The translations under genes were made by a program, and so were the position numbers. Shown here in pieces: positions 10,686 to 53,448 of a DNA stretch of 64,000 nt (its first letter is position 1; every line of letters begins with the position of its first letter). This DNA comes from Clostridia bacterium DTU025 (GTDB taxonomy: Bacteria > Bacillota > DTU025), in contig LFSP01000049.1 in assembly GCA_001513145.1 (NCBI GenBank), forward strand, positions 3,256-67,255, given 5' to 3'. The notes beneath the pieces are model-generated. The model was not told where the DNA came from. It saw only the letters and a program-made list of their open reading frames with translations, and searched no databases.

Positions 10686-10716
10686 TCCGGCGGGCTAGAA
10701 GGGGAGATGCACTGAC

Positions 10717-12544: not shown

Positions 12545-12557
12545 GGGAGGCTTCACG

Positions 12558-35080: not shown

Positions 35081-36220
35081 GTGGGCCGCTTGGGCAAGCA
35101 TCGTGCTAGAGGGATTCTGATCCTGGCGCTAGTGCTCTTTGTGGTGGGCGTATCTGCAGCCAGGTTCGCGCCGGAGAGCCCCACGGGGCTCGAGGTGTAT
35201 CCGTCGGCGTCCCTGACGCGGCGCACGTGGTTATCCCAGTACAATCCTGCCCTCAAAGGCACCGCCGGCGACACCCCTGTGCTGGTGTTCGAAGGAGCGC
35301 TCCCTGGCGGCACCATGTTGGTGCTGGGCGGTACCCACGCCGACGAGCCGGCAGGGGCCGCTGCCGCCTTAGTGATCGCGGAGAACGTCAGTCCCGAGCA
35401 GGGCAGGCTGATCGTCATCCCGTACGCCAACGCCTCGGGGTTCAGTCACACGCTCCCCCAGGAGGGGCACCCGTCTCATTACACGCTCGACACTCCTGGC
35501 GGGCCGAGGAGGATCCCGTTCGGCTCCCGCCTGACCAATCCGGTGCATCAATGGCCGGATCCCACAGTCTACATAGAGAAGGTACAGCGCCAGAAGCTTG
35601 CGGGAACCGAGTCGCGCAACCTGAACAGGGCGTACCCGGGAGAGGAGAACGGGTCTCTCACCGCCAAGGTGGCCTACGCCATCACCCGTCTCATAGTCGA
35701 TGAGGGCGTGGACGTGGCTGTGGACCTGCACGAGTCATCGCCTGAGTACCCTGTGAACAACGCCATAGTGGCCCACGACAGGGCGATGGACCTTGCGGCC
35801 ATAGCTGCGGTGGAGCTGGAGTACGCCGGGGTGAGCATCAACATCGAGCCGTCCCCGGTGAACCTGAGGGGGCTGTCGCACAGGGAATGGGGCGACAACA
35901 CCGATACCCTGGCGGTGCTCCTGGAGTCCCCCAACCCGTCCCAGGGAAGGTTGCGCGGGACCACCGACGAGAGGCTGGTGGTGGAAGGCATCGATCCGAT
36001 GTACTTGAAGGCCTCGCTGAGAGGGCGGCTGTACGTGCCATATACAGAGGAAGGCGCGCCGCTGGCCATGAGGGTGGGGCGGCACGTCGCCTCCGTGGAG
36101 GCGCTGGCGTGGTCGCACACCATGCTATCGCCTGACAGAGGTATAGTGCTCGGGGGGCTTCCAACTTACAGCGAACTGTTGGAGAACGGCGTGGGGGCTT
36201 ACCTCAAGCCAAGCAGGTAG
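35081..36220 (+). CDS. membrane-anchored/exported succinylglutamate desuccinylase/aspartoacylase-like (M14-type) protein
   Basis: N-terminal TM; GGTHADEPAG (HxxE), NLNRAYPG, VAVDLHES; RBS AGGAGGT suggests TTG 35090 start. Confidence 0.8.
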   Translation: MGRLGKHRARGILILALVLFVVGVSAARFAPESPTGLEVYPSASLTRRTWLSQYNPALKGTAGDTPVLVFEGALPGGTMLVLGGTHADEPAGAAAALVIAENVSPEQGRLIVIPYANASGFSHTLPQEGHPSHYTLDTPGGPRRIPFGSRLTNPVHQWPDPTVYIEKVQRQKLAGTESRNLNRAYPGEENGSLTAKVAYAITRLIVDEGVDVAVDLHESSPEYPVNNAIVAHDRAMDLAAIAAVELEYAGVSINIEPSPVNLRGLSHREWGDNTDTLAVLLESPNPSQGRLRGTTDERLVVEGIDPMYLKASLRGRLYVPYTEEGAPLAMRVGRHVASVEALAWSHTMLSPDRGIVLGGLPTYSELLENGVGAYLKPSR

Positions 36221-36255
36221 ACGAACGCATTCTCATGAAGAAGGAGGATACTGCA

Positions 36256-36822
36256 ATGAGAAATAGGACTATAGTAGCGATCGCGCTGGCGCTCGCGGCG
36301 GCGCTGCTGCTGGCGGGCATAGTGGCGGCGGCCCCGGCACCCGGAAAGCCGGCGCTGATCACGTCTGCAGGGCAGAGCACCGACGGGCTCATCCTAAGGA
36401 CCATCCTGACTGACAGGGCCACCGGCGAGTCGGTGCCCTTCGAGAAGCTGGCGACGCCCGAGAACCTTCAGGGCGTGAGAACCCTCATCGTGGCGGTTGG
36501 CCTCAGCTCCAAGGGCCTTGGCGCTGCAGGCGTCAACCAGGACCAGGAGAGGGAGAGGGTCGCGAACTTGCTTGACGCGGCAAAGGCCAACGACGTGTAC
36601 GTGATCTTGGTTCACATTGGCGGAACCGCTCGTCGCGGCGCCGGCTCGGACGAGTTCAGCAGCATGGTTGCCGAGTATGCTCACCAGATCTTCGTGGTCA
36701 AGGCAGGCAACGACGACGGCTTCTTCAACAAGCTTGCGGAGGCTAGAGGTATACCGGTTACCGAAGTCAACGACAGGACGGCACTGGGCCCGATCCTCAC
36801 GGAACTGCTGGCAGGCAATTAA
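36256..36822 (+). CDS. small exported protein of unknown function (possibly the family called DUF6305; recall unverified)
   Basis: Signal peptide; TSAGQSTDGLILR, VGLSSKGLGAAGVNQDQE; paralog of 45372 CDS. Confidence 0.7.
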   Translation: MRNRTIVAIALALAAALLLAGIVAAAPAPGKPALITSAGQSTDGLILRTILTDRATGESVPFEKLATPENLQGVRTLIVAVGLSSKGLGAAGVNQDQERERVANLLDAAKANDVYVILVHIGGTARRGAGSDEFSSMVAEYAHQIFVVKAGNDDGFFNKLAEARGIPVTEVNDRTALGPILTELLAGN

Positions 36823-36870
36823 CGGCTCACCGGCGAACGCGGGCGAAGCCCGACGGATGGAGGACCACCA

Positions 36871-37920
36871 ATGAGCATACGCAGGACTTTCACACTGATC
36901 ACCCTGATAGCGGTGGCACTGGCGTTCTCGTGCATAGGCCTGCAAATCTCGGCTGCAGAGCCCACGATGCACGATGTCAGGCCGGGATACGGAGTCACCA
37001 GGATCGGGTGGCTCAGCGATTACCACGCGCCCCTGAAGGCCACTCCGGTTGACACCAGGGTGTACTACCTGGAGAGCGAGGTGCCTGGTCCGACCCTCTT
37101 CATCCTTGGCGGCACGCACTCCAACGAGATCGCGGGGATAATGTCTGCCACCCTGTTCGTGGAGAGGGCTGTGGCTACGGCCGGCAGGATCATAGTGGTT
37201 CCGTACGCCAACCCATCAGGCGCCAGCTATCCCGACACGTTGCATCCGCAGATCGGGTTCTACACCATCACCACCAAGTCGGGGCCGCGCACCTTCAGGT
37301 ATGGCGACCGCCGCACCAACCCTGAACACCAGGGGCCGGACCCGGATCAGTACATCCATTACCCCACCGGAGTGGCGTTTGACGGCAACGAGGCGAGGAA
37401 CCTCGACCGTGCGCATCCGGGCAAGGCTGACGGCACCCTCACGCAGCAGCTGGCCTACGCCTATCACCGGCTGCTCATCGATGAGGAAGTGGACGTGGCC
37501 TTCGACCTGCATGAGGCGGGCGTGACCTCGCGCCTTGCCAACATGGTGATAGCCAACCCCAAGAACCTGGATTACGCCGTGATCGCCATCGTCGACTTGG
37601 AGCTGCAGGGCATCGTCATGAACGTCGAGCACTCTGACGACCAGTTCCCTGGGCTGTCGCACAGGGAGTGGGGCGACCACACGCAGGCAGCAGCGTACCT
37701 CATCGAGACCCCTAACCCGGGACAAACCCCCGGCATTACGGATCCAGACGTGGTCAACGACCCCGTCAATCCCCTGGCTCGCAGGGTCGCCACGCACCTG
37801 GCAGCCATAGACGCGGTGTTGGCGGCTCACGAGATGGTGGACGGCCAGCGCACCAAGTACACGGGCCTGCCGTCCTACGATGACCTCATCAAGTTCGGGC
37901 TCGGAGAGTATCTGAGGTAG
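36871..37920 (+). CDS. exported succinylglutamate desuccinylase/aspartoacylase-like (M14-type) protein
   Basis: Signal peptide; GGTHSNEIAG, ARNLDRAHPGKADG, VAFDLHEAG. Confidence 0.82.
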   Translation: MSIRRTFTLITLIAVALAFSCIGLQISAAEPTMHDVRPGYGVTRIGWLSDYHAPLKATPVDTRVYYLESEVPGPTLFILGGTHSNEIAGIMSATLFVERAVATAGRIIVVPYANPSGASYPDTLHPQIGFYTITTKSGPRTFRYGDRRTNPEHQGPDPDQYIHYPTGVAFDGNEARNLDRAHPGKADGTLTQQLAYAYHRLLIDEEVDVAFDLHEAGVTSRLANMVIANPKNLDYAVIAIVDLELQGIVMNVEHSDDQFPGLSHREWGDHTQAAAYLIETPNPGQTPGITDPDVVNDPVNPLARRVATHLAAIDAVLAAHEMVDGQRTKYTGLPSYDDLIKFGLGEYLR

Positions 37921-37978
37921 ATTGCAGACTGGACCGCAGACCAAACCGAAGAGGAGAATCGAAAGGGAGGGAAACGCA

Positions 37979-39694
37979 GTGTTGAAGCGGGTTTTCGGAA
38001 GACCGGTGTCTGTTACGGCCCTGGTCCTGGCGCTGATGCTGGTCCTGGGCACGGCCGTGCATGCACAGCTTCCCGAGGAAGTGCGGGCTGCCACCGGGAT
38101 GGTGGCATCGGCGCATCCTCTGGCGTCTGAGGCTGGCGTGGAGATTCTGAAGGCTGGCGGCAACGCGGTGGACGCCGCGGTCGCAACGGCCTTTGCCATC
38201 GGAGTAGTGGAGCCGAACGCATCTGGGCTAGGCGGCGAGGGCATGTTCGTGCTCTACATGCCTGAAGCCCAGCGTGCAGCGGTGGTAGACTACAGGTCCA
38301 CCGCACCGAAGCTGGCTGCTGAGGAGCTGGCCGGCAAGTCCATGCCCAGCACCGGATGGAGATCCGTGGGCACTCCGGGTCTTGTGGCCGGCCTAGCCAT
38401 GGCGCTGGAGAAGTACGGCACCATGACGCTGGCAGAGGTGATGCAGCCGGCGATCCGCCTCGCGGAGGAAGGCTTCCCCATCTCGGACGTCCTGGCCCAG
38501 CAGATCGAGGACAACTACGAGAGGATCCTGAACGACCCGGGTCTCTCCAAGGTGTTCCTGGACGAGGATGGGCTGCCTCCGCAGACAGGCTGGATAATGA
38601 AGAACCCTGACCTCGCGAAGTCCTTGAAGCTCATCGCCGAGCAGGGTCCTGACGCCTTCTACAAGGGTGAGATCGCCCAGGCCATCGATGCGGCCAGCCG
38701 CGCTAACGGCGGCTACATCAGAGCGGAGGACTTGGCTGATTACAAGGCGGTACAGAGATGGCCCGCACGCGGCAACTACCGCGGCTATGACATCATAAGC
38801 GCGCCTCCGCCTGTGGGCGGCGCCACGATGATCCAGGCTCTGAACATCGTCGAGAACTTCGACATCACCCGCGACGGCAAGCCCAGCGCGTTCTCGGTGC
38901 ACATCCTGTCGGAGGCCATCAAGAGGGCGTTCAGGGACTATCGCGAGTACGTGCATGACCCCGATTTCCGTCAGGTGCCCCTGTACGACATGCTCAGCGA
39001 GGACTACGCCAGGGAGCGCGCGGGTGAGATCGATCCCACGAAGATGACGCCGCACGCGGAGATCAAGGCGGGCCAGCTCACCAAGGCCATGTCGCTGGCG
39101 CCGACGGGCACCAGCTACGAGTCGCCGTCAACCACTCACATCTCCGTCGTTGATAAGGACCGCAACATGGTGGCCATCACCCAGACCATCAGCTCCTTCT
39201 TCGGAGCTGGCATCATGGTGGAGGGCACCGGTGTGATCCTGAACAACGAGGTTTACAACTTCACGTCCAATCTGGCGGCGGGCAACAGGATCGAGCCCGG
39301 CAAGCGCATGAGGACGTCCATAGCGCCCACCATCGTGCTGAAGGAAGGTAAGCCTTTCTTCACCATCGGCACGCCTGGAGGCACCAGGATCGTGCCCACG
39401 ATGGTGCAGCTGATGACCAACGTCATGGACTTCAACATGAGCTTGCAGGACGCCATCAACGCGCCCAGGTTCTTCGTGCGTGAGGGGAACGACTCGTTCG
39501 AGTACGAGATTCGCATGTCGGAGGAGATCCTGGAGGGCCTGAAGGCCATGGGCTACCCGATAGACGAGACAGGGGCGCACCCTGAGTTCGATCTATACTT
39601 CGGCGGAGCTCAGGGCGTGATGGTGGATCCCGACACCGGCGAGCTGATCGGCGCAGCCGATCCCAGGCGCGCAGGCGCCGCCATCGGCTACTGA
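37979..39694 (+). CDS. ggt: gamma-glutamyltransferase
   Basis: ATGMVASAHPLASEAGVEILKAGGNAVDAAVA, STTHISVVDKDRNMVAITQT (catalytic Thr), GTPGGTRIVPT; GTG 37979 start after GGGAGGG. Confidence 0.94.
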   Translation: MLKRVFGRPVSVTALVLALMLVLGTAVHAQLPEEVRAATGMVASAHPLASEAGVEILKAGGNAVDAAVATAFAIGVVEPNASGLGGEGMFVLYMPEAQRAAVVDYRSTAPKLAAEELAGKSMPSTGWRSVGTPGLVAGLAMALEKYGTMTLAEVMQPAIRLAEEGFPISDVLAQQIEDNYERILNDPGLSKVFLDEDGLPPQTGWIMKNPDLAKSLKLIAEQGPDAFYKGEIAQAIDAASRANGGYIRAEDLADYKAVQRWPARGNYRGYDIISAPPPVGGATMIQALNIVENFDITRDGKPSAFSVHILSEAIKRAFRDYREYVHDPDFRQVPLYDMLSEDYARERAGEIDPTKMTPHAEIKAGQLTKAMSLAPTGTSYESPSTTHISVVDKDRNMVAITQTISSFFGAGIMVEGTGVILNNEVYNFTSNLAAGNRIEPGKRMRTSIAPTIVLKEGKPFFTIGTPGGTRIVPTMVQLMTNVMDFNMSLQDAINAPRFFVREGNDSFEYEIRMSEEILEGLKAMGYPIDETGAHPEFDLYFGGAQGVMVDPDTGELIGAADPRRAGAAIGY

Positions 39695-39740
39695 TGGCTC
39701 ATCGGCGAATCTAGTGGCGTGACAGCTAAGTAAGCCAACT

Positions 39741-39774
39741 GGGCGCGGCCTCCGGCCATTCGGTGGCCGCGCCC
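39741..39774. other. intercistronic hairpin ggt/permease
   Basis: GGGCGCGGCC...GGCCGCGCCC perfect 10-bp arms. Confidence 0.6.
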
Positions 39775-39785
39775 ATTCCGAAAGA

Positions 39786-41147
39786 GTGATGTTCATGTGG
39801 CCCCAGATCCTAACGTTCCTGTCCATGATAGGCGCCTTCCTGCTGATCGCGGCAGGGCTCAGGCAGCCGGCGGCCCTGGCCACAGCCGGCGCGGCCTTCG
39901 TGGGCCTTGCGGCCTCAGGCAGGCTAGACCAGCTGCACCATCTGGTGGAGGGCGCCTTCGGATACTTCGACGTGCTGCTCATCATAGCGATGGCGATGGT
40001 ATTCATGGCGGCTCTGGAGTCGGCAGGCATCCTTGAGGAGATCTCCACCAGGATCACCCGCAGGCTGGGCAAGCGTCCGATGCTCCTCTCGCTGGCGTCG
40101 ATGCTCCTGGTGATGGCCCCCGGCATGCTCACCGGCTCGTCCACGGCGGCGGCCCTTACCACCGGTAGGTTCGTGCTGCCGGTGTTGATGGAGGCGGGTG
40201 TGCCGCTGGCCAAGGCCGGGGCCTTCGTGGCCCTCGGCGCCATCCTGGGCATGGTGGCGCCGCCTGTGAACGTGCCTGTGATGATCATCGGTTCCGGCAT
40301 CGACATGCCCTATGTCGGCTTTGACCTCCCCCTTCTGGCGATAGCCCTGCCCCCGGCCATCGCCGCTTCCGTGTGGGTCGCAAGGTCGGTGCGCAGGCCC
40401 GGCCTCGGAGGGAGGTCCGCCGCGGCTACCGCCTCAGAGGCTGGCGGCACCGGTTCTGCCACAGAGGGCGGCCGCGACGCCAGCAGCCGCGACACCGACA
40501 GCCATGACGATGAGCGAAGGATTCCAGGCTTCAAAGTTTACATCCCAATTCTGGTGCTTCTCGCCATGATGCTGGCCGTGCGGGTGTCCAACGGCTCCGT
40601 TCCGGACCCGGGCATACCCCTGATGTTCGCCGTCGGCGCGGTCCTGGCGATGCTGTGCGGCAGGCCGGTGAGGCCGTGGGAGGCTATCGAGCGTGGTATT
40701 GGCCTTGCGCTGCCGGTCATGGGCGTTCTGGTGGGTGCCGGCATGTTCGTGCAGGTGGCGACGGTCACAGGCGTCAGGGGTTTTCTGGTGGTGTCTGCGC
40801 TTGACATCCCGATGGCGTGGGTGATAGTCGTCGCGGTGCTGGCGCTGCCGGCCTTCGGGGCCATATCGGCGTACGCCTCGTCTTCAGTGATGGGAGTGCC
40901 CATCCTCCTCGCCCTCCTGGGCAACAACGAGGTGGTGACAGCGGCGGCCCTGTCGCTCCTCGCTGCCCTTGGAGACCTCCTGCCGCCCATCGCGATCGTG
41001 CCGAGCCTCATCTCCCAGGCCACCCAGGGCGGGGCGCAGACCAGAGGCGACATCCTGAGGCGGCTCGTGGTGCCCGGCGTGTTGCTGGCCGCGTGGGCCT
41101 ACATCGTGCTCAGGTGGGCTCCGGCCATCGGCAGGCTCCTGAGCTAG
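39786..41147 (+). CDS. 12-TM permease of ion-transporter type (TRAP large-subunit/GntP-like), copy A
   Basis: Polytopic; LTGSSTAAALTTG, MVAPPVNVPVMIIGSGIDMPYVGF; paralog of 46033 CDS. Confidence 0.8.
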   Translation: MMFMWPQILTFLSMIGAFLLIAAGLRQPAALATAGAAFVGLAASGRLDQLHHLVEGAFGYFDVLLIIAMAMVFMAALESAGILEEISTRITRRLGKRPMLLSLASMLLVMAPGMLTGSSTAAALTTGRFVLPVLMEAGVPLAKAGAFVALGAILGMVAPPVNVPVMIIGSGIDMPYVGFDLPLLAIALPPAIAASVWVARSVRRPGLGGRSAAATASEAGGTGSATEGGRDASSRDTDSHDDERRIPGFKVYIPILVLLAMMLAVRVSNGSVPDPGIPLMFAVGAVLAMLCGRPVRPWEAIERGIGLALPVMGVLVGAGMFVQVATVTGVRGFLVVSALDIPMAWVIVVAVLALPAFGAISAYASSSVMGVPILLALLGNNEVVTAAALSLLAALGDLLPPIAIVPSLISQATQGGAQTRGDILRRLVVPGVLLAAWAYIVLRWAPAIGRLLS

Positions 41148-41250
41148 GCTGGACGGCTCAGCGGCTCATCTTCCCAGCGCGTGCGCCGTATCAGAGGGGA
41201 CCGTATCAGGGGAGTTCTGGTTCACGAAGGATTTCGAGGGAGGCGATTGA

Positions 41251-41427
41251 ATGGTATACCTGCGACTGGCCACGGCGAGCTGGCTGACTCCAGTATACCT
41301 GCTCATGGTAGCCGTCACGGCGGTCGCGGTGGCGACGAACGTGCTGAAGCAGCGGTCGCTCTCCGGGCAGGTCATCGGAGGGATGGTTCTGGTGCCGCTG
41401 CTGTTGCGCCTGCTCATGGTGAAGTAG
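41251..41427 (+). CDS. 58-aa two-TM membrane protein, copy A (not in ORF track)
   Basis: MVYLRLATASWLTPVYLLMVAVTAVAVATNVLKQRSLSGQVIGGMVLVPLLLRLLMVK; homologous in position and C-terminus to 47354 protein; RBS GGGAGG. Confidence 0.8.
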   Translation: MVYLRLATASWLTPVYLLMVAVTAVAVATNVLKQRSLSGQVIGGMVLVPLLLRLLMVK

Positions 41428-41458
41428 GCGCAGGCACTCCAGGCGGAGGTACTGCCGG

Positions 41459-42928
41459 ATGAAAGACCAGACTGAAGCAGGCGCCCGCGGTGGCGAGGGC
41501 GACACGGCAAGATTCGCGTGGGCATATCCCGCGACTCTGTTTGCCCTGGCCATAGCTGCGCCTGCTTTCTTGAACGTGAACACCTTCGGCGTCATGAGGC
41601 TGCTCTGGGCGTCGCTTGAGGAGGGGCAGGTCACTCACCTGCTGGACGCCTGCATCCGCATGGTGATCCTCAACACGCTGAGGGCGTTTCCTATCTACCT
41701 GGGGGCGCTGGCCCTGGCCGGGATCGGCGAGGGTGGGTCAGGCCAACGACAGTTTCTGCGAAGCGTGGCCCTGGCGGCGCTGGTGGTCCCGCTGGAGTAC
41801 GCCCTGATAAACCAGGTGTACAGCATCACGTACGACTTCCGCATGCCTGCCATCCTCAGCATCGTGGCGGTGGCCGCCGTCCTCCGCATGGGCCAAACAC
41901 GCGTGCGGCAGGAGAAGTGGAAGGCCGCCAGCGTAGTTGGGGTGCTGGTGTTCGCCTTTCAGTGGCTGGACGTGGCGCCCGCCCTGACGCGGTGGGGATT
42001 CGGCCACGGCGAGATCTCCCTGGACATCAAGGCCGCTGCGGAGGTGCTCGGCGCGGCGTCCCTTCTCAACACATACACGGTGTCGCTGTGGGCAACCCTC
42101 CTGTCCATGGGACTGCTCCTTTCCAAGGTCATGGTGGACTATCGGACCCACATCCGCCTGATCGAGGAGGACCGGCGGCGCTCGGTGGAGCTGGCGCGTG
42201 TTCAGGCTGAGGCAGTGCAATCCAGGTCGTGGCAGGAGCTGAACCACCTCATGCATGACCTGCGCACGCCCCTCACCACCATACAGGGGCTGTCGTCCAC
42301 GCTTGCGGAGTACTCTGGCGGGATCGACCCGGAGCATGTGGCCGCCTACGCCGGCAGGATTTCAGAGGCGGCTGAAAGAATGGACACCATGATCAGGGAG
42401 ATGCTCTTCGGCAGCCGCATGCAGAGGGTGCCAGCGAAGTGGTTCGCCCGGAAGCTTGCGTCGCAGCTACCGGAGGAGAAGACCAGGGGCGTGGTGTCCA
42501 TCACCATGGCCGACGACCTGCCTGACATCACCATCAACACCATTCGTCTGACGCGGGCCATCATAAACCTCATAGACAACGCCATCGACGCCGGGGCCAG
42601 CGAGGTGAACGTCGACTTCTCGCGTTCACCGGTGGGGCTGAAAATCGTGGTGTCAGACAACGGCTCCGGCATGAGCGCACAGGAGCTGGCCAGGTGTCGT
42701 GAGGGCGGGTTCTCGACGAAGAACAGCACAGGCTTGGGGTTGCCGTTCGTGTGCGCCGTGATAGACGACCACGGAGCCGAACTTGAGATCACCAGCACCA
42801 CGCACGAGCAGAGCCGAAGGCGCGGCGTGGCGCAGGGGACTGTGTGCACCATCATTCTGCCTGAGGCGCGGGAGGTTGATTCACATCGTTCGCGATTCGT
42901 CTTGCCCGAGGATCCTGGCGGTCGATGA
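41459..42928 (+). CDS. sensor histidine kinase with polytopic N-terminal membrane domain
   Basis: ELNHLMHDLRTPLTTIQG (H box), INLIDNAIDAGA, VSDNGSGMS, GLGLPFV; RBS GGAGGT. Confidence 0.92.
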   Translation: MKDQTEAGARGGEGDTARFAWAYPATLFALAIAAPAFLNVNTFGVMRLLWASLEEGQVTHLLDACIRMVILNTLRAFPIYLGALALAGIGEGGSGQRQFLRSVALAALVVPLEYALINQVYSITYDFRMPAILSIVAVAAVLRMGQTRVRQEKWKAASVVGVLVFAFQWLDVAPALTRWGFGHGEISLDIKAAAEVLGAASLLNTYTVSLWATLLSMGLLLSKVMVDYRTHIRLIEEDRRRSVELARVQAEAVQSRSWQELNHLMHDLRTPLTTIQGLSSTLAEYSGGIDPEHVAAYAGRISEAAERMDTMIREMLFGSRMQRVPAKWFARKLASQLPEEKTRGVVSITMADDLPDITINTIRLTRAIINLIDNAIDAGASEVNVDFSRSPVGLKIVVSDNGSGMSAQELARCREGGFSTKNSTGLGLPFVCAVIDDHGAELEITSTTHEQSRRRGVAQGTVCTIILPEAREVDSHRSRFVLPEDPGGR

Positions 42929-43508
42929 TGACGAGGGCATTCTCTTCACGTTGGAGGCCATAGGCAGAACCGCAGGCTGGGAGGTCATCACCACCAGCGT
43001 GCCGCTGAACGCCCTCAGCATCGTGGAGAAGCAGTCTCCAGATGTAATTGTTGTAGACTATCACATGCCGGGCATGGACGGGGTGGCGCTGGTGAGGCAG
43101 ATCCGGGCCATCGATGCCGGCGTTCCAATCCTTGTTCTCACTGTAGACGAGCGTATGAGCCTGGCGGAGCGGTTCCGCGAGGCCGGGGCGGACGACTTCG
43201 CCGTGAAGCCCGTGAAGGCTGCAGACTTCATCTCCCGGGTGAGGCTTCACCTGGAACGAGGGCGCACGCAGCTGAGCTCGAACGCCATGCCCAAGGGCCT
43301 GTCGCCGCAGACCATGGCCAAGGTGGTGGCCGCGCTGTCGTCGGGCCCCGGATGGATGGGCGCCGAGGCCATCGCCAACAAGGTGGGAATCGCCTACCAG
43401 ACCGTATGGCGCTATCTCGACTCCCTGGAGGCCGACGGCAAGGTGAGGGTGAGGCTGGTGTACGGAGGGCGGGGCCGCCCAGCGAAGGAGTACGCGCTCA
43501 GACAATAG
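42876..43508 (+). CDS. response regulator (CheY-like receiver + CitB/DcuR-type HTH)
   Basis: ILAVDDDEGILF, DVIVVDYHMPGMDG, VKPVKAADF; start uncertain (TTG 42876). Confidence 0.9.
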   Translation: MIHIVRDSSCPRILAVDDDEGILFTLEAIGRTAGWEVITTSVPLNALSIVEKQSPDVIVVDYHMPGMDGVALVRQIRAIDAGVPILVLTVDERMSLAERFREAGADDFAVKPVKAADFISRVRLHLERGRTQLSSNAMPKGLSPQTMAKVVAALSSGPGWMGAEAIANKVGIAYQTVWRYLDSLEADGKVRVRLVYGGRGRPAKEYALRQ

Positions 43509-43515
43509 GGAAAGA

Positions 43516-43547
43516 GGGCGGGGTGTTCCCCGCCCTTCGTTGTTGTG
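43516..43547 (+). terminator. rho-independent terminator after two-component genes
   Basis: AGGGCGGGG-TGTT-CCCCGCCCT then TCGTTGTTGT. Confidence 0.85.
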
Positions 43548-43579
43548 CCCAGCGTTTTTCGGTTGACGTAGCCGCGGTC

Positions 43580-45136
43580 TTAGAATCCCTTGTCGTCGTA
43601 CTTGACGATCAGCATCTCAGCCAGCTTCCAGTAGGTATCCACCGCCAGGTTGCAGCGGCTATTGGTGTAGTTGGTAAGGAACTTCACCGCGAGCTCGGGG
43701 TTTGTGTTGAAGAGCTCCACGGCAGTCTTCTCGATGGCCGGCTGCAACGCGAACTGCTCCGCCTCGAAGGCGTCGCGCACGGCGGCGACGTCCTTGATGG
43801 CATCCTGGTACCTACGGTTCACCAGGTTGTCGACGAGGTCGAAGGCCCACCACGCCGACTCCCTGTTGTCGAACTCGAACTTCGTGCGGTCGTTAATGGC
43901 GTAGCTGTCCGGCAGTTTGGTGACGCCGGCGTAGATCGGCACGTACACAGAGGTGTCAGTCTGGTTCAGGCCGAACCACGCCAGGGTGCCCACCTGAGGC
44001 GGCAGCCAGCTGCGGGACTGCAGGATGGTGAAGTACGAGCAGCCCGGTATGGAGATGTTGCGCTCGTTGGGCGCGTCCACCAGCTTTGCGAACTCGCTTG
44101 ACACGTCAGGGGTGGCAAACGGGCTCTTGTAGAAGCCGCCCCTTCCGTCCGGCACGTACCAGTCGTTCACGTTGGCCTTGTCGTAAGGGGTGCCCTCATA
44201 GGTGTCGCGGTAGATCCTCATCATGTCCTGCACGGTGATGGGGTACTCCGCCTTGACGGTGAAGGGGAAGCGGGACGCGTTGGCGTCGAGCCTGAGGGAG
44301 GGAGCCACCAGGGACAGCACCCGCCACTCGCGGCGGCGCATGTTCATGCTGTTGTTGGGGGCGTACGCCTCATAGAACAGGAAAGGCTCTCCGCTTTCCG
44401 GGTCCCACCAACCGTTCTCGATGGCGACATCGAAGACGTTGGACGATGCCATGTAGTTCTCGGGGTCGCTGAGGTCGATCTTGCCGATGCGGCTCCTGTT
44501 GGCCGATACGCCCACATGGCCCTCGGGGATGCGGACCGCCGCCCAGATGGCGCCCTTCTGGAACGCCCCTGGAGGCATGATCTCGAAGTGCCAGATCTCG
44601 TTCTGGTCGCCGACGGTGAGGCACTCACCTCCGTCGACGTAGCCGTACTCCTCCGCCAGGGAGCCCATTATCTGGATGGCCTCGCGGGCGGTCTTGGCCC
44701 TCTGCAGGCCGAGGATCTGTAGCGTTTCGATGTAGAGCAGGCCCTCGTCGGTAGAGAGCTCACGGCGGTTGCCGATGGTGGTCTCTCCCATGATGACGCC
44801 GTGCTCGTTCATGTACGGATAGCCGGCGTAGAAGTAAGTGTAAGTAACAGGGGCCTCGGGGATCTCCCCGATCTTAATGGGTTCGGCGCGGTCGGAGTGG
44901 AGCAGGCCCTTGTAGCACGTGAACATCGCTCCCTCCGGGTGGGTCTGTCCGGGGACCACGAACGTGCGAGCATCGTACCATCCGTCACAAGTGTGGGCAG
45001 TCATGACTGATCCGTCGGCGCTTGCGCCCTTGGAGACGGGAACGGAAGTGCAAGCGTTGGCGGGAATCGCTGCCGCGAGCAATGCGACCATAAGGATTGA
45101 CAGCACTGTACCGTGCCTGCGGCACCACATGGTCAT
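43580..45136 (-). CDS. exported C69-family (Ntn) dipeptidase
   Basis: Signal peptide then ACTSVPVSKGASADGSVMTAHTCDG; ATG 45136 with AGGAGGT. Confidence 0.93.
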   Translation of the reverse strand: MTMWCRRHGTVLSILMVALLAAAIPANACTSVPVSKGASADGSVMTAHTCDGWYDARTFVVPGQTHPEGAMFTCYKGLLHSDRAEPIKIGEIPEAPVTYTYFYAGYPYMNEHGVIMGETTIGNRRELSTDEGLLYIETLQILGLQRAKTAREAIQIMGSLAEEYGYVDGGECLTVGDQNEIWHFEIMPPGAFQKGAIWAAVRIPEGHVGVSANRSRIGKIDLSDPENYMASSNVFDVAIENGWWDPESGEPFLFYEAYAPNNSMNMRRREWRVLSLVAPSLRLDANASRFPFTVKAEYPITVQDMMRIYRDTYEGTPYDKANVNDWYVPDGRGGFYKSPFATPDVSSEFAKLVDAPNERNISIPGCSYFTILQSRSWLPPQVGTLAWFGLNQTDTSVYVPIYAGVTKLPDSYAINDRTKFEFDNRESAWWAFDLVDNLVNRRYQDAIKDVAAVRDAFEAEQFALQPAIEKTAVELFNTNPELAVKFLTNYTNSRCNLAVDTYWKLAEMLIVKYDDKGF

Positions 45137-45371
45137 ATGCACCTCCTGGTATTCGCTGGGCGTGGGGATACTTCGGCGACGCACCTCTCAACCCTCTGAG
45201 AGTTCCATGGGAATATGCAACCATTTGTCTCGTGAGAAGGCATCCGTTGGCGATTCGAGGTTATCAGTTGGCACAGATCAAAGACCTTATTACCAGCAGG
45301 AACTTCCGCCCGTGGGTCGAAAGTACCCAAGCGGGGCATAGACTCCCTCAATACCACGGAGGTGCATATTA

Positions 45372-45995
45372 GTGGCAACGAACGGTATTTTTTCGATTGT
45401 GAAGAAAGGTACGGCTCTGGTGGCCGCGGCGGTGTTGGTGCTGCTAGCGTCGCATGTCGCCTTGGCGCAGGTTCCTGCGGGCATGGATATTCCTGCAAAC
45501 CTTCCGAAGCTCGAAGGCCCCGTAGCCATCACCACCATCGGACAGGCTCCGGGGCTTGTTCAGGTGGGGCTACTGCTGAAGCAGCTGAAGGTTGACGTGT
45601 ACTCTGATGACTTCCTGGAAGCCAAGGACCTGGTGGGCAAGGGCTACAAGGTGCTCATCCTCAACATGGGGACTAGCCTCAAGGGCATGGGCGCCGCCGG
45701 TGTTGACCTCGACTCTGAGATCGCCAGGTGCGACCAACTGGTGGCGGAGGCTCGCAAGCAGGGAATGTTCATCATCGGGGCCCAGATCGAGGGCCTCAAG
45801 CGTAGGACCGACGAGTACGACGAGAGGTCGAACAAGGCGGTTACGGCCGTAGCCGACCTACTGCTGATCCGAAGCGAGATCGACCATGACAGCTTCTTCA
45901 CCAACGTGGCGAAGCAGAGGAACATCCCGATCATCAGGACCAAGGAGGCGCTGGACTTCAAGTACGCCCTCGGAGTCCTGTTCGGAGTCAACTAG
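45372..45995 (+). CDS. small exported protein, paralog of 36256 protein
   Basis: Signal peptide; TTIGQAPGLVQVGLLL, GTSLKGMGAAGVDLDSE; GTG start after GGAGGT. Confidence 0.7.
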   Translation: MATNGIFSIVKKGTALVAAAVLVLLASHVALAQVPAGMDIPANLPKLEGPVAITTIGQAPGLVQVGLLLKQLKVDVYSDDFLEAKDLVGKGYKVLILNMGTSLKGMGAAGVDLDSEIARCDQLVAEARKQGMFIIGAQIEGLKRRTDEYDERSNKAVTAVADLLLIRSEIDHDSFFTNVAKQRNIPIIRTKEALDFKYALGVLFGVN

Positions 45996-46032
45996 GTCCG
46001 AGTCTACTGCTTATTAGTGCTAGTGCGGTAAG

Positions 46033-47337
46033 GTGGTGCGGGAGTTGTTTTACCATGCAGGGCTTGTGCTGGCAGTGATGGCCGTGGGCTTCGCGGCTGG
46101 GATCCTGCTTCGCATGGGCACAGAGCTGTCAATCCTCATCGCCGCGCTGGCTGGGGCCCTGGCCCATGGGGCCGGGGTGCCGGTGCGGCACATCGTCGAG
46201 GGCACCTTCACGTACTTCGACGTAGTACTGATATTCATCACCGCGACGTACTTCATGAACTTGCTCAAGGAGTCAGGTGGGGTCAGCTACATCGTAAGGG
46301 GCATCATCCGCAGGTTCCACAGGTCCAGGTTCATGCTCCTTCTCCTCCTCACCATCGTGATGCTGGTGCCAGGAGCCCTGACGGGATCCGGCACCGTAAC
46401 TGTGTTGGTGGTCGGCTCCTTCGTAGCCACGGTGCTGCAGTACCTGGGGATCTCGGCGGATAGGATCGCCGCAATAGTCTTCCTGGGGGCTGCCATGAGC
46501 GCCGCCGCGCCGCCCATCAACTTGTGGGCGATGATGGCCGCAGCCGGATCAAACATGCCGTACGTGGGCTTCACGCTTCCGCTTGCGGTCATCTCGATAC
46601 TGGGCGCGCTCTTCTCCGTATTCTACCTCGGCTGGGGCGGCACACAGCGCAACATCGACCTGGACAAGGCCATGAAGGAGCTGCCGGAACCGCCCAAGGG
46701 CACGTCATGGCTGCACGTGGCAGTCCCGTTCGCCATCTTCTTCGGAATCGTGCTTGGCGGACGTCTGTGGCCGTACGACATGCCAGTGGTGGGACTTCCT
46801 CTGGCGTTCACGCTGTCTGCCCTGACGGTGATCGTGATGTCGCCCACCAGGCTGCCTGCGATGAAGATCCTCTCTCGCACCGTCGACGACCTCCTGCCCC
46901 TGGTGGGAACCGTCACTGTGGTGGGGGTTCTCGTCCAGATCATGGCCCTGTCAGGGGCGAGGGGTTTGATCTCCCTTTCGGTGGTGATCCTCCCCCTCAC
47001 CGTGTTGTTCGCGGTGCTGTGGGCGGTGCTGCCGATCTCTGAAGGGATCTTCCAGTACGCCTCGGCGCCCCTCCTTGGAGTGCCGCTGGTGTTCCTCTTC
47101 AACATGAAGGGCATCAACCCCATCATCGCGCTTTCGGGCATGGCCACCATATGGCCGCTGGGTGACTGCCTGCCTCCCACCGCCCCGGTGGGCCGCGCGG
47201 CGGTGATGACTGCCGGATTCAAAGGTGATTACAAGCAGTTCCTCGTCCGTCTCATAGTGCCGGCACTGTTCATCCTGGCGCTGGGCACTCTCTACATCAT
47301 CTTCGCCAGCGAACTCGGTTTCCTGGTGTGGGGCTAG
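46033..47337 (+). CDS. 12-TM permease, copy B
   Basis: Polytopic; LTGSGTVTVLVVG, SAAAPPINLWAMMAAAGSNMPYVGF. Confidence 0.8.
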   Translation: MVRELFYHAGLVLAVMAVGFAAGILLRMGTELSILIAALAGALAHGAGVPVRHIVEGTFTYFDVVLIFITATYFMNLLKESGGVSYIVRGIIRRFHRSRFMLLLLLTIVMLVPGALTGSGTVTVLVVGSFVATVLQYLGISADRIAAIVFLGAAMSAAAPPINLWAMMAAAGSNMPYVGFTLPLAVISILGALFSVFYLGWGGTQRNIDLDKAMKELPEPPKGTSWLHVAVPFAIFFGIVLGGRLWPYDMPVVGLPLAFTLSALTVIVMSPTRLPAMKILSRTVDDLLPLVGTVTVVGVLVQIMALSGARGLISLSVVILPLTVLFAVLWAVLPISEGIFQYASAPLLGVPLVFLFNMKGINPIIALSGMATIWPLGDCLPPTAPVGRAAVMTAGFKGDYKQFLVRLIVPALFILALGTLYIIFASELGFLVWG

Positions 47338-47353
47338 GGAGGAGGGCGTGACG

Positions 47354-47518
47354 ATGCAGACGGTGCAGACGGTCATCGGATTCCTCTACTACGTCATCGC
47401 CGCTGTGATCGGGCTTGTGATCATAGCGAACTTCATGCGCACGCGCGACGCGAAGAAGATGCTGCTTTACGCAGTGGTGCTCATCCCGTTCGTGCTGCGC
47501 GTGCTGCGGATCAAGTGA
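47354..47518 (+). CDS. 54-aa two-TM membrane protein, copy B (not in ORF track)
   Basis: MQTVQTVIGFLYYVIAAVIGLVIIANFMRTRDAKKMLLYAVVLIPFVLRVLRIK; GGGAGG RBS. Confidence 0.8.
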   Translation: MQTVQTVIGFLYYVIAAVIGLVIIANFMRTRDAKKMLLYAVVLIPFVLRVLRIK

Positions 47519-47541
47519 ACCGGGAAGGAGGGGCATAGCAA

Positions 47542-48714
47542 ATGGCACAACCGAAACGCAGTCAGCTGACGATAAGGCTGGTTGTGGTGGCACTGTGGCT
47601 CGCCCTGGTGATCCCAGGCGGGATTCAGCTAGCCGCACACCGGAACTACAAGGAGACTATAGTCCTGGGCCCCGGGGTCACTGAAGTCCGCAAGCTCTCT
47701 GACTGGGCGCCCTACATCGAGGGAACAACCAACGACTGCAACATCTACGTGCTGGACTCCGGCGTGCCCGGCGGCACGATGCTGGTGATCGGGGGAACGC
47801 ACCCTGAAGAGCCGGCAGGGGTGTTGTCAGCGGTCACCATCGTGGAGAACGTGGTGCCTAAGGTCGGCAAGATACTGGTGGCCGTGCGCGCCAACAAGAG
47901 CGCGTCCACCGTCACCAGGCCTGGCGACGCGTACCCGCAGTTCTATACTATCCCCACGGATTTCGGCGACAGGAAGTTCAGGATGGGCGACAGGTGGTCA
48001 AACCCCCTGGACAGCTGGCCTGATCCTGAGGTATATGTGCACTATCCCTCCGGCCAGATGCTGGCCTACATGGACGTGCGGAACCTCAACCGCACCTGGC
48101 CTGGCAGGCCGGACGGCATGTTGACCGAGAGGACGACGCGGGCGTTCATCGACCTGATCAACGCCGAGAACGTGGATATATTCATCGACAACCACGAGGC
48201 CGAGCTGGAGTACTCGGTCATCAGCACCATAGTCGCCCACCAGGATGCGGCTGACATAGCGGCCATGGCCTCCATGATGCTGTCGGCCATGGAGTTCCCC
48301 ATGGGCATGGAGTACTCGCCGCTTCTGCTGCACGGCCTGTCCCACCGGGAGGTGGGCGACCATACAGACGCCCTCGCCCTGGAGATCGAGGTTCCAGAGC
48401 CGTTCCTCGACAGGGTGCGCGGCATCACAGACGAGGCTCTACTGCTTGAGGGCAAGGACGAGTTCGTGATGAGGGCAGGGAAGGCTGGCCTGCTGTACGA
48501 GAAGATCGACGAGAACGGCTGGCACATCGATGAGAGAGTCGGCCGCACCAACAGCACGATCAAGATGATCGTCGAGATGTACAACGAGTTCTATCCCGAC
48601 AGGCAGATCCAGTTCGAAGGCTTGCCCACGCGCGACGAGGTCGTTGCCTACGGAGTTGGGAGATACCTGCTCAACCCGGCTCAGGTTGGAGCAAATAGGG
48701 TGGTGCAGGACTAG
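47542..48714 (+). CDS. membrane-anchored succinylglutamate desuccinylase/aspartoacylase-like protein
   Basis: N-terminal TM; GGTHPEEPAG, VRNLNRTWPGRPDG, IFIDNHEAELEY. Confidence 0.8.
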   Translation: MAQPKRSQLTIRLVVVALWLALVIPGGIQLAAHRNYKETIVLGPGVTEVRKLSDWAPYIEGTTNDCNIYVLDSGVPGGTMLVIGGTHPEEPAGVLSAVTIVENVVPKVGKILVAVRANKSASTVTRPGDAYPQFYTIPTDFGDRKFRMGDRWSNPLDSWPDPEVYVHYPSGQMLAYMDVRNLNRTWPGRPDGMLTERTTRAFIDLINAENVDIFIDNHEAELEYSVISTIVAHQDAADIAAMASMMLSAMEFPMGMEYSPLLLHGLSHREVGDHTDALALEIEVPEPFLDRVRGITDEALLLEGKDEFVMRAGKAGLLYEKIDENGWHIDERVGRTNSTIKMIVEMYNEFYPDRQIQFEGLPTRDEVVAYGVGRYLLNPAQVGANRVVQD

Positions 48715-48774
48715 GGGCGCCAGCCTCTGGGACCAGCCGCCCGCAAGAAGCAGCGAAAGAAGGAGGACTCACGC

Positions 48775-50433
48775 GTGAAGAAGAGACTGGCAAGCGTTGT
48801 CGGGATCGCGCTTCTGGCGACACTTCTGGTGGCGCCGCAGCTTGTGCAGGCGTGCACGTCGATCCCGGTGTCGGCCGGCGCGTCGGCTGATGGCTCAGTC
48901 ATGACCACGCACACCGACGACTCGGGCACCGATACGATGCTCGTCTACGTGGTGCCGGCGGCAGACTGGCCGGAGGGCTCGATGAGGCCTGTGCGCCGGA
49001 ACACGGACTACGATCCATACGCGCAGCGTCGTTACCCCGTCACCGTGGTGGGCGAGATCCCCCAGGTGCCTCACACCTACGCGTACATCAACTCCTCTTA
49101 CCCATTCCAGAACGAGAAGCAGGTGGGAATGGGTGAGACCACCATCGGCGGCAGGCGCGAGCTGAACAACTCCGCCGGCTGGTTTGACCTGGTGGAACTC
49201 ATGAGGATCGGCCTTGAGAGGGCATCCACTGCCCGCGAGGCCATCCAGATCATGGGCTCGCTGGCTGAGAAGTACGGCTACGGCATCGGCGGCGAGTGCC
49301 TCACCGTGATCGACCCGAAAGAAGCGTGGCTCTTCGAGATCTGGGGCCCCGGCGTGTTCTGGACCCCTGACAGCGGCGAGCCTGGAGCGGTGTGGGTCGC
49401 CCAGAGGATACCCGAGGGCGAGGTCGGCGTGTCGGCCAACAGGAGCCGCATCGGCGCCATCAACCTCGATGACACCGATCACTTCATGGCGTCGTCCAAC
49501 ATCTACACCCTGGCCCAGGAGTACGGCTGGTGGGATCCGGATTCGGGCGAGGAGTTCAAGGTGTACGAAACCTACGGCTACAAGGCCCATTCTGCCTACA
49601 ACTCCAGGCGTGAGTGGAGAGTGCTGAGCCTCCTGGCGCCGTCGCTGAACCTGGATCCGGAGGCTGAGAGGTATCCGTTCTCGGTGAAGCCTGACAAGCC
49701 CGTCACGCCTCAGGACCTCATGAGGATCAACCGCGACGTCTACGAGGGCACCCCGTACGACCTCACTGCGGGCCTGGCGGCAGGGCCTTTCGGCACCCCG
49801 AACCGTTACCCCACTTCCGGCAGTGCCAACCCTCCGGGAAGCTCTGGCTGGGAGCGCGCCATCTCCATGTTCCGCGCGGTCTACTCCACCGTGGTGGTTG
49901 CCAGGGATGGCATGCCTGACATGATAGGCGGAATGACCTGGTTCGGCTATGATGCGCCTCACTCCACGTGCTACGTGCCGATCTACTGCGGCGTGTCGTA
50001 CCTGCCTGAATCCTTCAACAAGGGCATGAGGGGCGGCAGCTACGACGTGTTCTCCAGGGAGTCGGCGTACTGGGCGTTCAACTTCGTGTCCAACTTCGCA
50101 GACCTCAAGTTCAGCTACATGATAGAGGACATCAAAGCAGTGAGAGACCCGTTCGAGGCCGAGTTCTTCCAGCTGCAGCCGGCGATCGAGAACGCCGCCC
50201 TGATGCTGTACGAACAGGACCCCGAGGCGGCAAGGCTGTTCCTCACCAACTACACCAACAACCAGGCAAACCGGGTTGTTGACGCATACTGGAAGCTCGC
50301 CAGCCTGCTGGCAGGCAGGTACTGCGACGGGTATGTGTACGGAATCGATGAGTACGAGATGAGGACCGTTGGCTATCCGGAGTGGTGGCTCGAGGCGGTA
50401 GGTTTCGGCCTGAGCACCATTCCGAAGGAATAA
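48775..50433 (+). CDS. exported C69-family dipeptidase
   Basis: ACTSIPVSAGASADGSVMTTHTDDSG after signal peptide; GGECLTVIDPKEAWLFEIWG. Confidence 0.94.
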   Translation: MKKRLASVVGIALLATLLVAPQLVQACTSIPVSAGASADGSVMTTHTDDSGTDTMLVYVVPAADWPEGSMRPVRRNTDYDPYAQRRYPVTVVGEIPQVPHTYAYINSSYPFQNEKQVGMGETTIGGRRELNNSAGWFDLVELMRIGLERASTAREAIQIMGSLAEKYGYGIGGECLTVIDPKEAWLFEIWGPGVFWTPDSGEPGAVWVAQRIPEGEVGVSANRSRIGAINLDDTDHFMASSNIYTLAQEYGWWDPDSGEEFKVYETYGYKAHSAYNSRREWRVLSLLAPSLNLDPEAERYPFSVKPDKPVTPQDLMRINRDVYEGTPYDLTAGLAAGPFGTPNRYPTSGSANPPGSSGWERAISMFRAVYSTVVVARDGMPDMIGGMTWFGYDAPHSTCYVPIYCGVSYLPESFNKGMRGGSYDVFSRESAYWAFNFVSNFADLKFSYMIEDIKAVRDPFEAEFFQLQPAIENAALMLYEQDPEAARLFLTNYTNNQANRVVDAYWKLASLLAGRYCDGYVYGIDEYEMRTVGYPEWWLEAVGFGLSTIPKE

Positions 50434-50458
50434 CGAGAAGACAAGGAGGAAAGACAGC

Positions 50459-52039
50459 ATGAATCGGAACACGAAGAGGTCACGTCTGGCGATCGCAATC
50501 ATCGCTGCCGTAACCGCGCTGCTGGCCATAGCAGCACCCTCGTTCGCGTGCACGTCCATCGTGGTGGGCAAGGACGCGTCGGTTGACGGTTCGGTAATGA
50601 CCACACACACCTGCGACGGCACCTACGAGTTCAGGATCACTCTAGTTCCCGCTCAGGACTGGGAAGAGGGAGCCATGAGGCCCGTCTACAAGGGCGGAGG
50701 CTCCGGTGCTCACGTTCAGAACAAGCAGCAGGTGGGCGAGATCCCGCAGGTGGCGCACACCTATGCTTACTGGGACATCGCGTACCCCTTCGCCAACGAG
50801 AACCAGGTGATGATGGGCGAGACCACCATCGGCGGTAACCGCGAGCTCCGCAACGGCGACGGCATGTTCGAGATCTGGGAGCTGCAGCGCATCGGTCTCG
50901 AGCGCGCCACCACTGCCCGTGAGGCCATCAAGATCATGGGCGAGATCGCTGAGAAGTACGGATACGGCGACTCCGGCGAGTGCCTCACCGTCATCGACGG
51001 CAACGAGGCCTGGTTCTTCGAGATCTACGGCGCAGGCCCGTTCGAGATCGGCGCCGTCTGGGCCGCCCAGCGCGTGCCGGACGACGAGATCGGCGTTTCC
51101 GCGAACCGCGCCAGGATCGGCGAGATCAGGACCGACGATCCCGACAACTTCATGTACTCCGAGAACATCTTCCAGGTAGCGAAGGACTTCGGCTGGTGGG
51201 ACGAGTCCCAGGGCCCGCTGCACTTCGCGAAGGTCTACGGCTGGAAGGACTCCGTCTACAACACCCGCCGCGAGTGGCGCGTGCTGGATCTGCTGGCTCC
51301 GTCCCTCGGGCTGGATCCCTGGGCTGTCGATTACCCGTTCTCTGTGAAGCCTGACAAGAAGGTCAGCGCTGCGGACCTCATGGCCATCAAGCGCGACCAC
51401 TATGAGGGCACCGAGTTCGACCTCACCAAGGGCCTCGCAGCTGGTCCGTTCGGCAACCCCAACAGGTACGCCACCCCCGCCAGACTCGGCGAGTGGGAGC
51501 GCGCCATCTCCATGTTCCGCTGCTCGTACGTGGTGGTCATGCAGGCTCGCGGCTGGATGCCCGCTGAGATCGGTGGAGTCATCTGGTTCGGCGAGGATGC
51601 GCCGCACAGCACCTGCTACGTGCCGTTCTACTGCGGTCAGGATTCCGTTCCTGAGTCCTTTGCCAGGGGCAGCCGCGCGGTGCTTGACGACTGTGCATGG
51701 TGGGCGTTCAACTACGTCAGCAACATCGCTGACCTGAAGTACTCCTACATGATCGAGGACATCAAGGCCCTGTACACCAAGTTCGAGACCGAGGCTCTGG
51801 CGATGCAGCCTGCAGTGGAGCAGGCAGCGCTTGACCTCTACAAGGTCGATCCCGATCTGGCCATGGCGTTCCTGACCAACTACACCAACGCCCATGCCCA
51901 GAAGGTAGTCGACGCTTGGTGGAAGCTGGCCGATGACCTGATGGTCAAGTACCAGGATGGCTACGTGGACCTCAAGACCGTGGGCTATCCTGATGAGTGG
52001 CTGATGGACGTCGGCTTCGGCTTCATCACCAGGGACTAG
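50459..52039 (+). CDS. exported C69-family dipeptidase
   Basis: ACTSIVVGKDASVDGSVMTTHTCDG after signal peptide; GECLTVIDGNEAWFFEIYG. Confidence 0.94.
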   Translation: MNRNTKRSRLAIAIIAAVTALLAIAAPSFACTSIVVGKDASVDGSVMTTHTCDGTYEFRITLVPAQDWEEGAMRPVYKGGGSGAHVQNKQQVGEIPQVAHTYAYWDIAYPFANENQVMMGETTIGGNRELRNGDGMFEIWELQRIGLERATTAREAIKIMGEIAEKYGYGDSGECLTVIDGNEAWFFEIYGAGPFEIGAVWAAQRVPDDEIGVSANRARIGEIRTDDPDNFMYSENIFQVAKDFGWWDESQGPLHFAKVYGWKDSVYNTRREWRVLDLLAPSLGLDPWAVDYPFSVKPDKKVSAADLMAIKRDHYEGTEFDLTKGLAAGPFGNPNRYATPARLGEWERAISMFRCSYVVVMQARGWMPAEIGGVIWFGEDAPHSTCYVPFYCGQDSVPESFARGSRAVLDDCAWWAFNYVSNIADLKYSYMIEDIKALYTKFETEALAMQPAVEQAALDLYKVDPDLAMAFLTNYTNAHAQKVVDAWWKLADDLMVKYQDGYVDLKTVGYPDEWLMDVGFGFITRD

Positions 52040-52604: not shown

Positions 52605-53414
52605 CTAGAAGCCGGGTACCAGCGACCCCGGGTACTTGCTCTCCACGTACCTCACCACGGCCTCGGACTGATACGCCTCGACCAGATCCAGCAGGGCGGG
52701 GTCGTTTTCGCGGCCAGCCTTCACGGCCAGGATGTTGACCCAGGGGGAGTCGGCCCTCTCCAGGAATACCGCGTCGCGGGCGGGCACGTAGCCCGCCTCC
52801 ATGGCGTAGTTGGTGTTGATGAACGCCAGGTCCACGTCGTCGAGGGCCCTGGGGATCTGGGCCGCTTCCAACTCCACGATCCTCAGCCCCAGGGGGTTCG
52901 AGACGATATCGAAGACTGTGGCTTTCCATCCGACGCCATCCTGCAGCTTGATCAGGCCTGCAGTCTCCAGTAGCACTAATGCGCGGCCCCCGTTTGAGGG
53001 ATCGTTGGGGATCGCCACCGTTGCGCCTCGGCGCAACTCGGAGATGGAGGCGATCCGCTTGGAGTAGGCGCCCATGGGGAAGATGAAGGTGTTGCCTATC
53101 TTCACGAGGTTCACCTTTCTGTCTGCGCAGAACTGTTCGAGAAACGGGTAGTGCTGATAGCTGTTGACGTCCAGCTCGCCTTCGGCCAGGGCGACGTTGG
53201 GGTTGATGTAGTCGGAGAAGACGATGATCTTCAGGGTGTAGCCCTTTGCCTCGTATATGGGCTTCACCACCTCGGCAAGCTCCTCGTGGACCCCTGGGGT
53301 GACGCCCAGCACGATGGTTCGTGGCTGCGCCGACGCAGCCGCAGCCATGGAGCACATGGTCGACACCACCGCCAGCGCCAGGCAGAGTGCGAGTGCCTTG
53401 TTCATCTTCCTCAT
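52605..53414 (-). CDS. metQ: MetQ/NlpA family methionine ABC transporter substrate-binding protein
   Basis: TIVLGVTPGVHEELAEVVKPIYEAKGYTLKIIVFSDYINPNVALAEGELDVNSYQHYPFLEQF. Confidence 0.94.
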   Translation of the reverse strand: MRKMNKALALCLALAVVSTMCSMAAAASAQPRTIVLGVTPGVHEELAEVVKPIYEAKGYTLKIIVFSDYINPNVALAEGELDVNSYQHYPFLEQFCADRKVNLVKIGNTFIFPMGAYSKRIASISELRRGATVAIPNDPSNGGRALVLLETAGLIKLQDGVGWKATVFDIVSNPLGLRIVELEAAQIPRALDDVDLAFINTNYAMEAGYVPARDAVFLERADSPWVNILAVKAGRENDPALLDLVEAYQSEAVVRYVESKYPGSLVPGF

Positions 53415-53448
53415 GTGCCTACAGCCTCCTTTGCTCTTGATCTCTGGG

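Follow-up and report, generated by a model that had tools for sequence, protein, structure and literature searches.

What is the function of two neighbouring gene blocks that each combine a permease of 12 transmembrane helices (TM) with a tiny membrane protein, a small exported protein and a set of hydrolases? The blocks lie at positions 35081-52039 of a 64,000-nt stretch (hereafter, the window) of contig LFSP01000049.1 from Clostridia bacterium DTU025, and comprise block A (35081-43508) and block B (45372-52039). An earlier note on this DNA proposed that the permease, the two-TM miniprotein and the exported protein form a noncanonical tripartite transporter fed by envelope hydrolases. The exported proteins belong to the DUF6305 family (PF19823; 155.2 bits in block A and 131.7 bits in block B, cut-off 25). 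We suggest, with a probability of roughly 0.58, that the trio is a TRAP-like, ion-coupled importer of glutamyl or γ-glutamyl peptides, which would act as the recapture arm of a poly-gamma-glutamate (pgs) system made of PgsB, PgsC and PgsW, with a sensor branch attached. Complex formation, the import direction, the substrate and the ion coupling are what we infer here.

Families were assigned with Pfam and NCBIfam profiles, and the genes of collected loci were mapped with profiles built in this analysis, using a simple codon-usage gene caller on mostly metagenome-assembled genomes. The loci came from a phylum survey of 398 genomes, in which DUF6305 loci were collected, and from an independent set of 84,980 species genomes, which contributed 80 permease loci. 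The latter collection was scanned with a single 10-residue pattern and the best 80 of 515 were taken, so this sample is biased to close relatives. Proteins are called exported on predicted signal peptides, with hydrophobicity as the sole criterion. The miniprotein gene was directly 3' of the permease gene for all 125 distinct permeases whose downstream sequence reached 300 bp or more (median gap, 20 bp), and in 73 of 73 cases in loci left out of miniprotein profile building. The permease was detected in 22 survey genomes, strong miniprotein matches in the same 22, and all of them carried DUF6305. A DUF6305 gene was upstream of 108 of 113 permeases (within 250 bp in 84), and two of the five exceptions (L101 and L183) carry it on the other side. 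The source genome has four copies each of the DUF6305, permease and miniprotein genes, in every case arranged as cassettes, two of them beyond the window at C3 and C24. The proposed link to envelope hydrolases was borne out, as AspA-like (aspartoacylase-like) enzymes were downstream of 105 of 111 permeases and C69 peptidases or gamma-glutamyltransferase (GGT) within 6 kb in 89 of 130.

The main context of the cassette is a pgs system, which is invisible from the window alone and absent from the earlier note. Cassette neighbours included PgsB (TIGR04012), PgsC (TIGR04011) and a "poly-gamma-glutamate system protein" (TIGR04332; PgsW is the name used here), all over curated cut-offs. PgsW was detected in 22 of the 22 permease genomes, and permease, miniprotein, DUF6305 and PgsW coincide in the same 22 of 398 (Fisher p ~4e-34 for permease with PgsW; as the surveyed genomes are related to one another, co-occurrence p-values are indicative only). 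The recurrent operon, pgsB-pgsC-pgsW-DUF6305-permease-miniprotein-AspA-like-C69 or close variants, was found in about eight phyla, with pgsBCW in the operon or divergent from it; the loci are titled Bacteroidetes, Gemmatimonadota, Aminicenantes, Acidobacteria, Atribacteria, Bipolaricaulota/Acetothermia, Synergistetes and Halanaerobiales. In the single-contig genome G310 (locus L201), the order was AspA-like, GGT, DUF6305, permease, miniprotein, AspA-like, PgsB, PgsC, PgsW, histidine kinase (HK) and response regulator (RR). The only pgsBCW cluster of the source genome is at C24, divergent from a cassette, and no pgs genes lie within blocks A or B. Ten survey genomes had PgsC without PgsW or permease, indicating that the cassette tracks PgsW and not PgsB/PgsC as such. 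Two genomes with PgsW lacked the permease (G218 and G267); their pgs genes sit at contig ends, so they are no clear counter-examples.

The permeases have weak Pfam matches to DctM, CitMHS or Na_H_antiporter. Block A narrowly exceeds the DctM cut-off of 23.8 bits, block B is below it (10.1 bits), and neither passes TIGR00786. The nearest PDB folds to the AlphaFold2 (AF2) model of the block B permease were TRAP M subunits (IseQM and SiaQM, TM-scores 0.72 and 0.70), followed by DASS and ArsB, and Foldseek returned 45 PDB matches at E<=1e-3, chiefly TRAP M, DASS, ArsB and AbgT. The permease is thus predicted to be of the elevator type, with the fold shared by TRAP M, DASS and ArsB that characterises the IT superfamily. 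By hydropathy each miniprotein forms a helical hairpin; the family has invariant Y, P and R residues, and in the alignment the C-terminus reads P-x-x-x-R-x-x-x-x-K/R, ending at the stop codon; a profile search of these 56-58 aa proteins detected no DctQ match. In several Aminicenantes loci (L133:350-934, L139:8384-8962, L154:8342-8926 and similar), a protein of 190-260 aa with two TM and a soluble C-terminal domain is encoded just before the permease; the one searched had no Pfam match.

The cassette resembles TRAP (DctPQM; SiaPQM, IseQM) and TAXI-TRAP transporters in combining an exported protein, a small membrane protein and a 12-TM permease, and TRAP M is the closest predicted fold of that permease. 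The other two parts differ. The TRAP or TAXI receptor is a two-lobed substrate-binding protein (SBP), DctP or TAXI, whereas that of the cassette would be DUF6305 with a single Rossmann-like domain; DctQ has four TM, whereas the small subunit here has two in ~56 aa. Because these Q and P features are lacking, we regard the cassette as likely TRAP-like in its working but no TRAP member. As the earlier note had stated, neither block has an SBP or DctQ gene, a point that the profile searches confirmed. That note had also counted a canonical DctP/DctQ pair for these permeases elsewhere as evidence against its proposal. DctP genes of the source genome are at C35 and C50, and the one DctQ is in the separate C35 operon, a canonical DctPQM set that brings its own DctM and so is not the partner of the cassettes. 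The window also holds a separate, complete TAXI-TRAP at 4287-7213 (+), an SBP and then a fused permease of 619 aa (DctM E=3e-93). An ordinary TRAP transporter with its SBP and Q encoded elsewhere was therefore ruled out. TctABC likewise joins a secondary permease, a small membrane subunit and an extracytoplasmic receptor; no cassette protein had a TctA, TctB or TctC family match in Pfam or NCBIfam.

The AF2 model of DUF6305 consists of an N-terminal signal or anchor helix and one Rossmann/flavodoxin-like domain. Its PDB matches were weak (TM-score at most 0.51 by either length), and PDB sequence searches returned only noise. The DSSP string of the model places the conserved residues in the loops that follow strands 1, 3 and 4 and in the helix that comes next, a region that usually forms the ligand edge in folds of this kind. 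A tree of 100 DUF6305 domains placed the main HK-linked lineage apart from the permease-linked lineages. Permease-type proteins share a loop, S-x-K-G-x-G-A-A-G, with K and the last G each kept in 98%; HK-type proteins lack it. Both types keep G-Q, E116, R119 and mostly R144/R145 and D150 (block B numbering). A lipobox was considered as a divider of HK-type from permease-type proteins and set aside as suggestive but weak (5/22 vs 6/118). The DUF6305 profile was made from shorter proteins, a limit that matters because three proteins are DUF6305-hydrolase fusions. One DUF6305 (L118:15698-16780, +) has a ~200-aa N-terminal extension resembling a LamG-type binding domain. Minor contexts of the family were hydantoinase/oxoprolinase (L051), a flippase-like protein (L053), a phnS2-like SBP with an ABC permease (L057), and a Trp/Tyr-type permease with a beta-eliminating lyase upstream of DUF6305 and an AspA-like gene (L047). 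In L060 (7429-9183, -), an internally deleted DUF6305 is joined in frame to the permease N-terminus, followed by the miniprotein; this single case may reflect decay or assembly.

The HK-linked lineage occurs as DUF6305-HK-RR in 22 loci, 20 of them without a permease. An OppA-type oligopeptide ABC importer adjoins 18 of these 22 loci, as against 2 of 111 permease-type loci. Two of the remaining four are on short stretches; in the other two (L115 and L121) DUF6305-HK-RR is followed by a DUF6305-permease-miniprotein-AspA cassette, which thus stands in place of the peptide importer. Outside the HK-type loci, a profile of the N-terminal membrane region of these kinases matched few kinases other than those of islands with DUF6305, permease or pgs genes. 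This sensor region of 5-6 TM, which has no Pfam match, is shared by kinases at L061:10244-11629 (-) and L092:8650-10026 (+) and by the block A kinase. Sensor kinases that depend on a receptor are known in TctC-TctDE and LuxP-LuxQ. DUF6305 precedes a multi-TM HK and RR as an extracytoplasmic receptor would; the arrangement differs from the known ones in that DUF6305 has no known receptor fold and the kinase sensor region no Pfam family. An OppA-like gene at 8991 of the window belongs to an oligopeptide-type ABC transporter (8991-15055, +) that is unlinked to the two blocks.

All three AspA-like copies of the window carry GGxHxxE, D[LN]HE and a C-terminal ExPxP and exceed the Pfam cut-off, having the zinc ligands (H..E and H) and catalytic Glu of the AstE/AspA zinc hydrolase clan. 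Known poly-gamma-glutamate hydrolases include secreted GGT and PghP, a carboxypeptidase-A-like zinc enzyme (PMC4497714), so a processing role is plausible for both GGT and the AspA-like enzyme. The likeness to the Bacillus PgsBCA(E)/CapBCADE systems lies in the PgsB/PgsC homologues and in processing by a GGT-family enzyme and a zinc hydrolase (PMC4497714); the difference is the association with PgsW. In the proposed mechanism, AspA-like zinc hydrolases, GGT and C69 peptidases at the cell surface would release amino acids or short acidic peptides (glutamyl or gamma-glutamyl), for which DUF6305 may be the extracytoplasmic receptor. The 12-TM permease and the miniprotein, taking the place of DctQ, would then act as an ion-coupled importer with partners non-homologous to those of TRAP, so that the trio could recapture the breakdown products of PgsB/PgsC/PgsW-type poly-gamma-glutamate. 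The second DUF6305 lineage would feed a dedicated membrane-sensor kinase controlling either cassettes of this kind or an ABC importer of oligopeptides.

Several observations weigh against this reading. DUF6305 is not confined to permease loci, as 23 of 45 DUF6305 genomes lack the permease, and three permease loci show no DUF6305: L171, L188 and L146, the last with masked sequence upstream. The co-occurrence anticipated in the earlier note holds fully for the miniprotein and in one direction for the exported protein, every permease genome having DUF6305; the tripartite proposal keeps its support from the gene pairing, the upstream DUF6305 and the TRAP M-like fold. No two-lobed SBP was among the DUF6305 fold matches listed, nor did the profile search match one, so by predicted fold and profile this candidate receptor is not a two-lobed SBP. 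The Mantel correlations of cassette parts were high for all pairs (0.75-0.94), inseparable from species history, the pgs link could be due to joint transfer, and C69 peptidases are not known as poly-gamma-glutamate enzymes. A less likely alternative is that the permease and miniprotein are a two-subunit secondary transporter without a binding protein. In it, DUF6305 would be a module for sensing or for binding the polymer, and would signal to the kinase or hold the hydrolases in place. Its single-domain fold without two lobes, its place before HK in the 22 loci, its fusion to an AspA-like domain upstream of the kinase in three Halanaerobiales genomes (L061-L063) and its position before AspA-like or GGT genes without a permease in L038, L047 and L049 are all consistent with such a module. 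Yet most permease cassettes have no adjacent HK and each keeps DUF6305, usually immediately upstream, the permease-type lineage is separate with its own invariant loop, and the L060 fusion, treated with caution, joins DUF6305 to the permease.

Export is improbable in our view, although near-perfect co-occurrence with PgsW and operons of the form pgsBCW-DUF6305-permease-miniprotein would fit a trio that exports the polymer or releases its chains in PgsW-type synthesis, in place of PgsA/PgsE. Canonical PgsE/CapE is, moreover, a very small membrane protein. We favour import on three grounds. The source genome pairs a lone pgs cluster with four cassettes, most of which have hydrolases of their own; this surplus would fit substrate-specific importers. 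The HK-linked sister branch is found alongside peptide importers, and the solutes carried by the elevator fold are small. A PgsA-type (PGA_cap) gene elsewhere in the source genome also speaks against replacement of PgsA. It is very improbable that chance or loose linkage among housekeeping genes explains the arrangement, with a dicarboxylate-type permease of the ordinary kind near peptidases: the weak Pfam calls would allow it, but the strict 1:1 linkage across about eight phyla and the co-occurrence with PgsW, indicative as its p-value is, do not agree with it.

The trio may tentatively, at somewhat less than even odds, be regarded as a new class of receptor-dependent secondary transporter: an elevator permease with an obligate two-TM subunit and a one-domain DUF6305 receptor, coupled to a PgsBCW make-cut-recapture cycle and a kinase with a sister DUF6305, in about eight or more phyla. 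This would give DUF6305 and a so far unannotated two-TM family their first functional context. It also predicts a secondary transporter that depends on a receptor outside the classical binding proteins. Both families are joined to a poly-γ-glutamate system named by NCBIfam, for which the literature searched held no describing paper. In that literature, no mention of DUF6305 was found, nor of PgsW together with poly-gamma-glutamate; the phrase "poly-gamma-glutamate system protein" occurred in one paper only, which deals with another subject, and no description joined PgsBCW to the permease, miniprotein, DUF6305 or AspA-like hydrolase (NCBIfam defines only PgsB, PgsC and TIGR04332). Poly-γ-glutamate has been studied well almost only in Bacillus. 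The cassette suggests that another, widespread version exists in uncultured and anaerobic bacteria, where the polymer may also be turned over and recaptured.

Within 35081-52039, all genes were present at or within ~20 bp of the coordinates first given, and all score as coding. The duplicated module described earlier is real in that both blocks hold the same parts, but the copies are ancient paralogues, as the permeases are 29% and the DUF6305 proteins 27-28% identical; a recent duplication was ruled out by this divergence. The hydrolase order also differs, the AspA-like gene being downstream of the miniprotein in block B and both block A copies upstream of the permease, flanking DUF6305.

Features of blocks A and B in the window, in gene order
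Feature	Position	Strand	Evidence
Block A exported AspA/AstE-like zinc hydrolase	35081..36220	+	Pfam AstE_AspA_cat E=1e-8; motifs GGTHADE, DLHE, ESPNP
Block A exported DUF6305 protein, receptor-like	36235..36822	+	Pfam DUF6305 E=1.3e-45
Block A second exported AspA/AstE-like zinc hydrolase	36871..37920	+	AstE_AspA_cat E=6.5e-12; motifs
Block A exported GGT	37922..39694	+	G_glu_transpept E=8e-155; TIGR00066 481 bits vs cut-off 358
Block A 12-TM permease, predicted IT superfamily	39786..41147	+	Pfam DctM 26.7 bits vs cut-off 23.8; family alignment
Block A 58-aa 2-TM miniprotein, C-terminus LVPLLLRLLMVK	41251..41427	+	Profile match 67.6 bits; alignment; survey
Block A HK, N-terminal membrane sensor of DUF6305-HK family	41459..42928	+	HisKA/HATPase; sensor-region profile E=3e-33
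Block A RR, true start probably downstream of 42783	42783..43508	+	Response_reg E=3e-23 and HTH_24
C69 peptidase, divergent, between blocks A and B	43580..45184	-	Peptidase_C69 E=3e-60
Block B exported DUF6305 protein, receptor-like	45372..45995	+	Pfam DUF6305 E=2.3e-38; AF2 single Rossmann-like domain, pLDDT 90.9
Block B 12-TM permease, predicted IT superfamily	46033..47337	+	AF2 pLDDT 87.9; Foldseek top match IseQM, TM-score 0.72
Block B 2-TM miniprotein, C-terminus LIPFVLRVLRIK	47348..47518	+	Profile match 80.3 bits; alignment
Block B exported AspA/AstE-like zinc hydrolase	47542..48714	+	AstE_AspA_cat E=1.3e-6; GGTHPEE, DNHE, EVPEP
Block B exported C69 peptidase	48775..50433	+	Peptidase_C69 E=9e-61
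Block B exported C69 peptidase	50459..52039	+	Peptidase_C69 E=6e-70

The block B miniprotein has 56 aa when read from the GTG at 47348 and 54 aa from the ATG at 47354. Directly 3' of block B, at 52605-54872 (-), the window encodes what appears from its sequence to be a MetQ-MetI-MetN-like methionine ABC importer.

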